Under the pieces are notes generated by a model that did no database searches, was not told the origin of the DNA, and saw only the letters and a program-made list of their open reading frames with translations. The translations under genes and the position numbers were made by a program. Positions 19,110 to 22,429 of a stretch of 64,000 nucleotides of DNA are shown one piece after another (the first letter of the stretch is position 1; each line of letters starts with the position of its first letter). This DNA is from Steroidobacteraceae bacterium. Lineage in GTDB: Bacteria > Pseudomonadota > Gammaproteobacteria > Steroidobacterales > Steroidobacteraceae. The DNA is taken from contig JALORN010000001.1 in the NCBI GenBank assembly GCA_025458905.1, forward strand, positions 1 to 64,000, given 5' to 3'.

Positions 19110-21461
19110 ATGAACTTGCTCTCGCGACTGTTCCGCAAGCCACCGGAGCCGGCTCCGCCGGCCACCGAGCCGGCACCTGCGCCGCTGCCCGCCGCGGCGC
19201 CGGCACCCCCGGCGCCGGTGGTCGATCCTGGGGAACACGAGCAGCTGCTGCGGGCGATCGGCAGCGGCGAGCTGCCGGCTGCCGAGCTCGCCCGGCTCGC
19301 GGTCGACGGCCCGACCACGCGCATCCGCCAGGCTGCGGCGGCAGCGATCGACGATCCGGCGACCTGGCAGGAGCTGCTGCCGCGGCTGCGCGGCCGGGAC
19401 AAGGCGGCGTACAAGCTGCTGCGCCAGCGCAGCGACGCCCTGCTCGCCGCGCACCGGCAGCGGGAGCATGCCGCTCAGGAAGCCGCGGCTGTCTGCGGCT
19501 CGCTCGAGAAGCTCGCCGGCCGCGCCCACGACGCCGCGTTCCCGGTCTCGCTGGAGCTGCTCGCCGCACGCTGGCAGGCGCTGCCGCCGCCGGTCGATGC
19601 AGCGTTGCGGGAACGCGGCGAGCGGGCCCTGGCGCGCTGTCGCGAGGTGGTCGCGGCGCACCAGCTGGAGCTCGCCCGGGTCGCCGCGGAACGCGCCGCG
19701 GCGCAGGCGCGCGCCGCTGCCGAGGCGGCCGAGCTGGAGGCACGCGAGCGGGCCGCGGCCGAGCAGGCGGCGGCCGCCGCGAGCGCGCAGGCCGAGGCGC
19801 ACGCCGCCGCGGCGGCGGCTACCGAGGCCGAGGCCGCGCAGCGCGCCGCGGTGGACCAGGCACTCGGCGAGCTCGCGAGCCTCGTGCGCCTCGCCACGGC
19901 GGCGCTGCAGCGCGGCGACACGCGCAAGGCGGCGCGCTTCCGACAGTCGCTCGAGGAGCTGTTGCCGGGCGCGCCCGCTTTGCCGCCGGCCCTGGCGCGC
20001 GGCCTCGAGAAGCTCGACGCGCGGCTCAACGAGCTGCGCCAGTGGAAGGACTACGTCGCCGCGCCGAAGCGCATCGAGCTGATCGAGGAGATGGAGGCGC
20101 TGGTCGGGGTCGACGAGCCGCCCGAGCCGCTCGCCGAGCACATCCGCGCGCTGCGCCAGGAATGGCGCACGCTCAACAAGGGGCTCTCGACCGCGGCGCC
20201 GGTCGAGGCCGAGCGCTTCGAGAAGGCCTGGCAGGCCGCGTTCGAGCCCTGCCGGGTGCACTTCGCGGCGCAGGCGGCGGCACGCCGCGAGAACCTGGAG
20301 TCGCGGCGGCGCGTGCTCGAGCGCGTGCTCGCCTTCGAAGCCGCCATCGACGCGGAGCGGCCCGACCATCCCCTGGTCGCCCGCGTGCTGCGCGAGGCGC
20401 CCCAGGAATGGCGCAGCCATGCGCCGGTCGATCGCGAGGCCGCGCGCCCCGTCGAGGCCGAGTTCCACCGCGCCCTGGACCGGCTGCGCTCCCGGGTCGA
20501 GGCCTGGCAGGCGCGCAACGCCGCCGACAAGCAAGCGCTGGTGGTGCGCGCGCGGCAGCTCGCGCAGCTCGACGACCTCGGCCGCGCAGTGGAGGAGACA
20601 CGACGGCTGCAGGCGGAGTGGAAGGCGACCGGTCCCGCACCCCACGCGCAGTCCCAGGCGCTCTGGGAGGAGTTCCGCGCGCTCTGCAACGGCGTCTTCG
20701 AGCGCCGCCAGCAGGCCTTCGCCGCGCAGGCGGCGGCGCTCGGCGAGTCACAGGCCCGGGCCGAGACCCTGTGCGCCGAGATCGAGCAGGCGGCCGGCGA
20801 GCCGCCGCCGGACCGGCAGGCCGCCGAGTCGCGGCTGCTCGAGTGGCGCGCCGCGTTCGATGCGCTGGGCGAGCTGCCCCGGCCCGTGGCCCGCAGCCTG
20901 CGCCAGCGCTTCCAGGCCGCGCTGGCGCGCCATGAGTCGCTGCTCGCCTCGCTGGAGCGGCGCGCGGCGGAGTCGGCGGAGTCCAGCCTGCTCGCGGCCG
21001 CCCGCGAGGTTCGCGCCCTGCAGCGTGCGCTGCTCCAGGGCGCCGCCGAGGACGAATGCGAGGCGCTGCGCGGTGCCGCCGAGAGCGGCGTCGCGGGCGT
21101 CGCGCGCTGGCCTTCGAAGGCCGTGGCACAGGCGCTGCGCCAGGCGCTCGCCGGGGCGCGTGCGGCGGATTTCGTCGCGGCCGCGGGCGACGACGCGGAT
21201 CGCGAGCGCGCCCTGCGCCGCCTGTGCGTGCGCGCCGAGATCCTCGCCGCCGCCTCGACCCCGGCGGAAGACGCCACCCTGCGCCGCGAGGTCGAGCTGC
21301 AGATGCTGAGCCGGGGCCTCGGCCAGGCACGGCGCGTCGAGGCGCGCGACTGGGAGGCGATGCACGCGGAGTGGCTCGGGGTCGCCGCCATCGAGCCTGC
21401 GCGGCACGACGCCCTGGAGCGGCGCTTCCTGCACGTCGTCGGCCGCGGCCGCGCGGCATGA
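19110..21461 (+). CDS. DUF349 domain protein, long coiled-coil
   Basis: 783 residues. After a short N terminus ([11 protein letters not shown]) and a Pro/Ala-rich linker come repeated helical DUF349 units, each built around an invariant tryptophan pattern such as [65 protein letters not shown] and [15 protein letters not shown]. Long Ala/Glu/Arg stretches (about residues 190-250) predict coiled coil. DUF349 proteins are common in gamma- and betaproteobacteria, and their biochemical role is unsettled. The stop overlaps the start of the LPOR-like gene (ATGA, 21458-21461), so the two are probably cotranscribed and translationally coupled. Confidence 0.88.
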
Positions 21462-22429
21462 GCGGGGCCGACACGCCGACGGCGATCGTCACCGGCGCCT
21501 CCTCCGGCGTCGGCCTGCACGCCACGCGCGCGCTGCTGCGGCGCGGCTGGCACGTCGTCATGGCCTGCCGCGACCTCGGCAAGGCCGGCCAGGCGATCCG
21601 CCTGCTCGGCTTCGACGCCGCCGCGGTGACCCCGATGCACCTCGATCTCGGCTCGCTCGACAGCGTGCGGCGCTTCGTCGAGAACTACCGCCGGCGTGCC
21701 GATGCACTGGAGGCGCTGGTCTGCAACGCCGCGGTCTACCTGCCGCAGCTGCGCGAGCCGATGCGCTCGCGCGACGGCTACGAGATCAGCGTCGCGACCA
21801 ACCACCTCGGCCACTTCCTGCTCGCGAACCTGCTGCTCGAGGACCTGCGCCGCTCCCGCTCCGCCACGCGCCGGCTCGTCACCCTCGGCACGATCACCGC
21901 CAACACCGCCGAGTTCGCGGGCCGCATCCCGATCCCGCGCCCGGCGCACCTCGGCGACCTCGCAGGCCTCGCCACGGGCTTCAAGGCCCCGGTGGCGATG
22001 ATCGACGGCGGGCGCTTCCTGCCCGGCAAGGCCTACAAGGACAGCAAGCTCTGCAACATGATCACCAGCCGCGAGCTGCACCGGCGCTTCCACGACGCGA
22101 CCGGCATCGTCTTCAGCACCGTCTACCCGGGCTGCGTCGCCGACACCGGCCTCTTCAGGCACACGCCCGCGGCGTTCCGCCGCTTGTTCCCGCCGTTCCA
22201 GAAGTACGTGACCCGCGGCTACGTGACCCAGGAGCTGGCGGGAGAGCGCGTCGCGCAGGTGACTGCGGATCCGGGCTTCGGCAATTCCGGCCTGCACTGG
22301 AGCTGGGGCGGCCGCCGCAGCGCCGAGCGGTCGCCCTTCGCCCAGTCGCTGTCGGTCGAGGCCAGCGACCAGGCGCGCGCCGAGCGACTGTGGGAGCTGA
22401 GCGCCGCGCTGGTCGGGCTGCGCGCCTGA
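21458..22429 (+). CDS. por: Light-dependent protochlorophyllide oxidoreductase (LPOR)
   Basis: 323 residues, the standard LPOR length. Cofactor loop TGASSGVG is at residues 12-19. LPOR-specific segments run through the whole protein: [95 protein letters not shown] and SGLHWSW. The catalytic Tyr193, Lys197, Cys199 and Cys226 fall at exactly the positions known from cyanobacterial LPOR. The enzyme reduces protochlorophyllide to chlorophyllide with NADPH and light, a step in (bacterio)chlorophyll synthesis. It is otherwise found in oxygenic phototrophs and in a limited set of aerobic anoxygenic phototrophs, where Dinoroseobacter shibae was the first shown. No other bch gene is in the window. Coupled to the DUF349 gene by a 4-base overlap. 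Confidence 0.9.

Follow-up and report, generated by a model that had tools for sequence, protein, structure and literature searches.

A predicted light-dependent protochlorophyllide reductase encoded apart from the photosynthesis gene cluster in an apparent gammaproteobacterial phototroph

We have found that an open reading frame on contig C57 of a draft genome (MAG) is predicted to encode a genuine, full-length light-dependent NADPH:protochlorophyllide oxidoreductase (LPOR), and that the same assembly carries photosynthesis genes together with the genes of DPOR (BchLNB). Taken as a whole, the data make it highly probable that this is the LPOR of an anoxygenic phototrophic gammaproteobacterium, gained horizontally, which would convert protochlorophyllide (Pchlide) to chlorophyllide in the light beside DPOR. 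The window, that is, the whole stretch of DNA analysed, covers bases 1–64000 of C57 (231,718 bases), and the LPOR gene is situated 21 kb inside the contig; the MAG amounts to 4.28 Mb in 109 contigs, with an estimated completeness of 85.79% and an estimated contamination of 2.64%.

LPOR gene and protein product

The reading frame has 323 codons and no internal stop (Table 1), in agreement with a preliminary description of this DNA, in which the gene was called complete. The top-scoring NCBIfam model was the LPOR model TIGR01289 (476.5 bits, E 4.4e-143, against a curated whole-protein cut-off of 331.35 bits), with residues 7–321 of the protein aligned to model positions 4–314 of 315; among the best 25 of 131 families the runner-up, an SDR subfamily, reached 139.3 bits and stayed below its own cut-off of 268. 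The top PDB sequences were those of the Thermosynechococcus LPOR (6l1h/6rnv, 452 bits), aligned 2–321 on 2–321 with identical numbering and no shift. Tyr193, Lys197, Cys199 and Cys226, earlier said to stand at the exact cyanobacterial numbering, were all found there, as were Cys37, Cys89, Asn90, Thr145, Thr147 and Gln248, so that the conserved cysteines Cys37, Cys89 and Cys199 accompany the catalytic Tyr193, Lys197 and Cys226; Ala92 and Tyr94 were deduced from the NAAVY motif at residue 90. The TGASSGVGL segment we take, from the SDR/LPOR literature, to be the NADPH-binding motif.

All catalytic and substrate-contact residues examined are kept. According to the available part of one source (PMC13297055), Y94, T145, T147, Y193, K197, C226 and Q248 are substrate, cofactor or catalytic residues, with Y94, T145, T147 and Q248 in contact with Pchlide and Cys226 acting in proton transfer. 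An ordinary SDR was considered as the identity of the protein and was ruled out by the TIGR01289 score, by these residues and by 67% identity to an LPOR.

Table 1. Features of the window discussed in the text (positions are those of the window)
Feature	Position	Strand	Evidence
rpoD, C-terminal part	20..523	+	used for lineage placement of C57
CarS-like protein (CDP-archaeol synthase family)	18614..19072	+	PF01864, 42.4 bits
DUF349 protein, 783 aa	19110..21461	+	PF03993, 91.9 bits, three stretches; sequence
LPOR (predicted), 323 aa, intact	21458..22429	+	TIGR01289, PDB LPORs, residues
Presumed NADPH-binding motif TGASSGVGL, residues 12–20	21491..21517	+	translation, motif position
YKDSKLCNM segment, residues 193–201, with Y193, K197, C199	22034..22060	+	residue check
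Cys226 codon	22133..22135	+	residue check; role as given in the available part of PMC13297055

Phylogeny and history of transfer

The tree was built of LPORs only and had 82 rows: the best 80 of 581 relatives, the LPOR of Dinoroseobacter shibae and that of the window. Eleven of the 80 loci were alpha- or beta-proteobacterial or Gemmatimonas by title and with D. shibae made 12 non-cyanobacterial loci; a twelfth non-cyanobacterial title was counted with the cyanobacteria, in keeping with its tree position. The latter LPOR, from a Candidatus Gracilibacteria bacterium MAG, falls inside the cyanobacteria, and most likely the contig is a mis-binned cyanobacterial one.

An LPOR phylogeny, proposed earlier as a check, placed the window row with the 12 other non-cyanobacterial rows in a 13-row group with support 100/95. 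The window row lies outside the 12, and its end branch (0.75) is the longest of the 82. Its highest identity in the tree, 67%, was to a Sphingomonadales LPOR. It departs from 4 of 81 near-invariant columns, i.e. those with conservation of 98% or more across the remainder of the alignment, 81 rows (V146I, G154A, K156R and N285G, none of them a named active-site residue), against 0–2 departures in 16 other rows compared. The long branch and the four departures point to faster evolution of this LPOR, conceivably under relaxed constraint, and they count against our preferred explanation.

In AU tests, other placements of the window row were not rejected: beside 24 picocyanobacterial rows (p 0.456), beside the remaining 45 (p 0.254), beside nine beta rows (p 0.46) or beside two alpha rows (p 0.488). 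Together, the grouping in the tree and the AU tests favour one shared transfer and leave room for a second. If this lineage had acquired its LPOR from cyanobacteria separately, in a second transfer and with the function being the same, this would agree with the branching of the window row outside the other 12 and with the picocyanobacterial and 45-row placements not being rejected in the AU tests, but the 100/95 grouping and the closest identity being to a Sphingomonadales LPOR speak against it, and we consider such a history rather improbable.

Photosynthesis genes elsewhere in the genome

A look through the genome for bchLNB, bchXYZ, puf and acsF, also suggested in the preliminary description, found all of them, on contigs C19 and C8. 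With PF00124, two reaction-centre genes were observed side by side at C19:69720-71378 (334.8 and 354.9 bits); pufM exceeded its NCBIfam cut-off with 537.3 bits, and pufL was named from a piece truncated by the end of the stretch. Four proteins matched PF00148, namely BchY and BchZ on C19 (bchZ with 676.5 bits against a cut-off of 529) and BchN and BchB on C8. On C19, bchC, bchX, bchY, acsF (478.9 bits), puhB, puhC, bchM and a crtI-family gene exceeded their NCBIfam cut-offs along with pufM, and so did bchP, bchG, ppsR and bchN on C8, where bchH is located as well; bchB was above the cut-off of TIGR01278 and below that of PRK02910.1-4. The name lhaA, tried for one open reading frame, was dropped as there was no NCBIfam match.

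PF00142 matched BchX on C19 and one protein in two pieces, which lie at the right-hand ends of C8 (profile positions 2–117) and C19 (86–265). For both pieces the top NCBIfam model was DPOR_bchL, with 227.9 and 273.7 bits; these scores are below the whole-protein cut-off of 345.15 because the gene is cut by the contig ends. The ends of C8 and C19 have an exact overlap of 99 bases, inside bchL, and most simply the two contigs would join as one cluster with DPOR.

The available part of PMC7947762 gives a rule for aerobic anoxygenic phototroph (AAP) hosts: three DPOR subunits, PufL/PufM, AcsF and/or BchE, and no RuBisCO large chain and/or phosphoribulokinase. We found in this genome the three DPOR subunits (bchN, bchB and the split bchL), PufL/PufM and AcsF. 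With puf, puh, bch and acsF genes on C19 and C8, the genome has what an anoxygenic phototroph using an oxygen-dependent cyclase and DPOR would carry, and we characterize the host, as judged from its genes, as an anoxygenic phototroph that has LPOR as well as DPOR. Of the two possibilities raised earlier, a phototrophic host with LPOR situated away from the photosynthesis cluster is thus the one that the genome bears out.

Host lineage and distribution of LPOR

No 16S gene was found in the MAG, and the lineage of C57 was assessed by the RpoD end (window 20-520), which matched in 56 of 60 genomes at E <= 1e-50 (own genome included). Twenty of 23 congeners had a match, 19 at 95–98% over the full stretch and one at 98% over a part of it, with three having none. 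As a genome from another genus of the family (G027) was also 98% identical, RpoD places C57 at the level of the family rather than of the genus. Against named plasmid-collection records (25 of 101 records), identity was 84% to most Enterobacterales, 82% to Halomonas, 78% to Acinetobacter and Legionella and 74% to Burkholderia and Methylobacterium; these identities, over one 167-residue piece, point to a host from the Gammaproteobacteria in the strict sense.

The GC content of the window (0.735) is close to that of the C19 stretches (0.718–0.739) and of C8 (0.726). Third-position GC is 0.969 in the LPOR gene and 0.934–0.967 in bchB, bchG, bchY (0.966), acsF (0.967) and pufM. It is unlikely that C57 is a foreign contig.

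LPOR above the cut-off was observed in 1 of 60 relatives, 1 of 396 genomes of the order and 1 of 369 genomes of the class (overlapping draws), in each case the window's own genome. Reaction-centre genes were present in 55 of the 396 genomes of the order; these included 18 of the 20 congeners of that draw as well as the window's own genome. Thus, many members of the genus are phototrophs, but LPOR is not common among them; LPOR seems, from these genomes, to be rare in this bacterial group. In a PufM tree of 21 rows (own and 20 loci) the own PufM fell among those of the same family with weak support (83/78), near congener G020, with the PufM of congener G008 placed elsewhere; its identity was 73% to both congeners and up to 79% to other families. 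From this placement and the distribution, it is probable, though not certain, that the photosynthesis cluster is native to the family, whereas LPOR looks like an addition. The genome is unusual within its genus in both size and GC (4.28 Mb and ∼70–75% in sampled loci, compared with 1.4–3.6 Mb and 59–69% in nine same-genus loci).

The occurrence of LPOR and of the photosynthesis cluster on different contigs of an 85.8% complete MAG counts against our preferred explanation, and one has to consider a binning artefact, in which C57 or the LPOR stretch would come from an organism other than that of the photosynthesis contigs. The estimated contamination, the presence of LPOR in one genome of the order, the similarly singular DUF349 neighbour (see below), the larger and GC-richer genome and the own PufM being less similar to two congener PufMs than to some of other families would all fit such an error. 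On the other hand, RpoD on C57 matches the genus at 95–98% and so places the contig in the family, PufM on C19 falls, if weakly, among same-family PufMs, both overall and third-position GC are similar between the contigs, and LPOR lies well inside a 231.7-kb contig. We therefore regard an artefact of this kind as very unlikely.

Integrity of the pathway

The bchH match (L128:15634-19397, equal to C8 33634-37397) is split, with model positions 1–594 in one frame and 591–1243 in another. The halves jointly span the model and each is open for about 600 codons; the frame change is either a sequence error in the MAG or a real break, and in the latter case the bacteriochlorophyll pathway would be broken. 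The host could then be a decaying phototroph that has lost bacteriochlorophyll, its LPOR being a relic under relaxed selection, as the long LPOR branch might also suggest. However, two long open halves covering the model point to a sequence error or to one recent event, no stops were seen in the matches of the other scanned bch, puf and acsF genes (apart from pieces cut at contig or stretch ends), and the LPOR gene is intact and keeps the active-site residues, which makes decay of this kind a most improbable explanation.

Gene neighbourhood on C57

A CarS-like gene opens a same-strand run in which the DUF349 gene starts 37 bases downstream; the ATG of LPOR then overlaps the DUF349 TGA by 4 bases (ATGA). 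The coupling to a DUF349 gene, noted earlier, was thereby observed again, and the overlap is probably a case of translational coupling. The link between the two genes is probably one of merely shared transcription or translation, and any meaning of the coupling we can but infer; no sign of a role of DUF349 in pigment synthesis was found. Of 24 genus genomes, one, the window's own, gave a match to the DUF349 protein at E <= 1e-10, hence no empty site was readable for comparison among the 24. The gene upstream of LPOR is likewise restricted within the genus.

There were no photosynthesis proteins among the 20 window proteins scanned with Pfam, and the whole-genome searches gave no match to PF00124 (reaction centre), PF00148 (BchN/B/Y/Z) or PF00142 (BchL/X) on C57. 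The earlier statement that no bch, puf or crt gene lies within 40 kb on either side stands for these three families on the contig; to the left, however, 21.4 kb are visible instead of 40 kb, because window base 1 is also the first base of the contig. Similarly, the description of the gene context as non-photosynthetic is correct for the local neighbourhood and fails for the genome, given the cluster on C19/C8.

With TGT-N12-ACA, which we take to be the PpsR-like site motif, we saw no site near the LPOR run; two matches in the window (3503 and 40341) compare with 2.61 expected by chance. Stretches L128, L041 and L040 had 3, 2 and 2 matches with 0.85, 0.73 and 0.66 expected, one being at the bchC ORF start as called (L040:13896) and one between bchG and ppsR (L128:9441). 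These matches are too few for a conclusion.

At the right edge of the window (55975-63822, minus strand) there are hydrogenase maturation genes, for HypD, HypF, a CobW/HypB/UreG-type protein and HupH_C, and their presence suggests a [NiFe] hydrogenase beyond that edge.

An orphan LPOR-like enzyme that acts in the light on a different substrate had also been proposed. With a host that makes no (bacterio)chlorophyll, it would suit a contig with no match to the three families and a gene coupled to DUF349 and not to bch genes, but it is scarcely credible: the examined Pchlide-contact residues (Y94, T145, T147, Y193, C226 and Q248) are kept, the same genome carries pufLM, bchLNB, bchXYZ, acsF, bchM, bchG and bchP, an encoded substrate pathway deprives the proposal of its motive, and no positive evidence for it was found.

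Proposed function in the host

As the LPOR of a phototroph, the enzyme would bind NADPH and Pchlide; on absorption of light by Pchlide, hydride transfer from NADPH and protonation via Cys226 should reduce the C17–C18 double bond, yielding chlorophyllide a, which would proceed to bacteriochlorophyll a with the help of BchXYZ and BchG/P. DPOR, being oxygen-sensitive, would catalyse the same step in the dark, in parallel. With LPOR beside an oxygen-sensitive DPOR, pigment synthesis could be possible in light and oxygen; the activity of this LPOR and its division of labour with DPOR are inferred here from chemistry established for the family. The LPOR gene, which stands behind a DUF349 gene outside the photosynthesis cluster and now matches the host in base composition, would have been gained horizontally. 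More pigment synthesis under aerobic conditions has been suggested as the advantage of LPOR (PMC7947762, available part).

A literature search (LPOR with gammaproteobacteria, Halieaceae or metagenome-assembled genomes; subscription papers being outside its scope) turned up no gammaproteobacterial LPOR among the papers listed, and the organism is perhaps a new class-level host for this enzyme. It is possible, if somewhat doubtful, that all of the following hold together: this is the first known gammaproteobacterial LPOR; it represents the deepest non-cyanobacterial branch or a second gain from cyanobacteria; its phototrophic kin are without LPOR; and its DUF349-coupled locus is a new one, outside the control of the photosynthesis cluster. 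The finding would widen the host range of LPOR to an apparent gammaproteobacterial phototroph and adds a data point on how often LPOR left cyanobacteria. It also offers a natural comparison between one species with LPOR and DPOR and congeners with reaction-centre genes in which LPOR was not found, and this comparison bears on the benefit of an oxygen-insensitive Pchlide reductase to an aerobic anoxygenic phototroph.

Comparison with known systems

In the same genome, ordinary SDRs such as the matches on C56 and C96 share with the window LPOR the SDR family and the region of the N-terminal NADPH motif, but their identity to it is at most 43% over stretches of ∼140 residues, and among the matches listed they score at most 73.2 bits with the LPOR model. 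The cyanobacterial LPOR of Thermosynechococcus (6l1h/6rnv) has the same length, numbering and examined catalytic residues; among the best 80 of 581 relatives, the cyanobacterial loci show 52–64% identity to the window LPOR, whose host, in contrast, has genes for a type II reaction centre and bacteriochlorophyll.

A photosynthesis gene was present in the examined stretch of 7 of the 12 non-cyanobacterial loci (from the best 80 of 581, with D. shibae) and absent from 12–21 kb in the other five (L052, L076, L087, L099 and L186), several of these stretches being cut by contig ends. An LPOR gene outside the photosynthesis cluster is then not odd, and in these five loci it may lie outside as well. 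In two beta-proteobacterial MAGs (L085 and L119) both Pchlide reductases adjoin, with LPOR beside bchB and a bchL-like gene (36% identity to BchX of this genome), and in L085 also bchN. The D. shibae LPOR, on the 72-kb plasmid pDSHI05, is likewise apart from photosynthesis genes, as 17 photosynthesis queries had no match in 12.9 kb of its locus. None of the 12 loci contained a DUF349 match (E 1e-10).

The AAP LPORs, from D. shibae, Gemmatimonas phototrophica, Limnohabitans and others, also occur, as the available part of PMC7947762 describes, in genomes with DPOR, a type II reaction centre and acsF, and 10 of 11 homologues tested there were active. They belong to the same tree group as the window LPOR, which differs from them in its gammaproteobacterial host, as indicated by RpoD, in its coupling to DUF349 and in having the longest branch.
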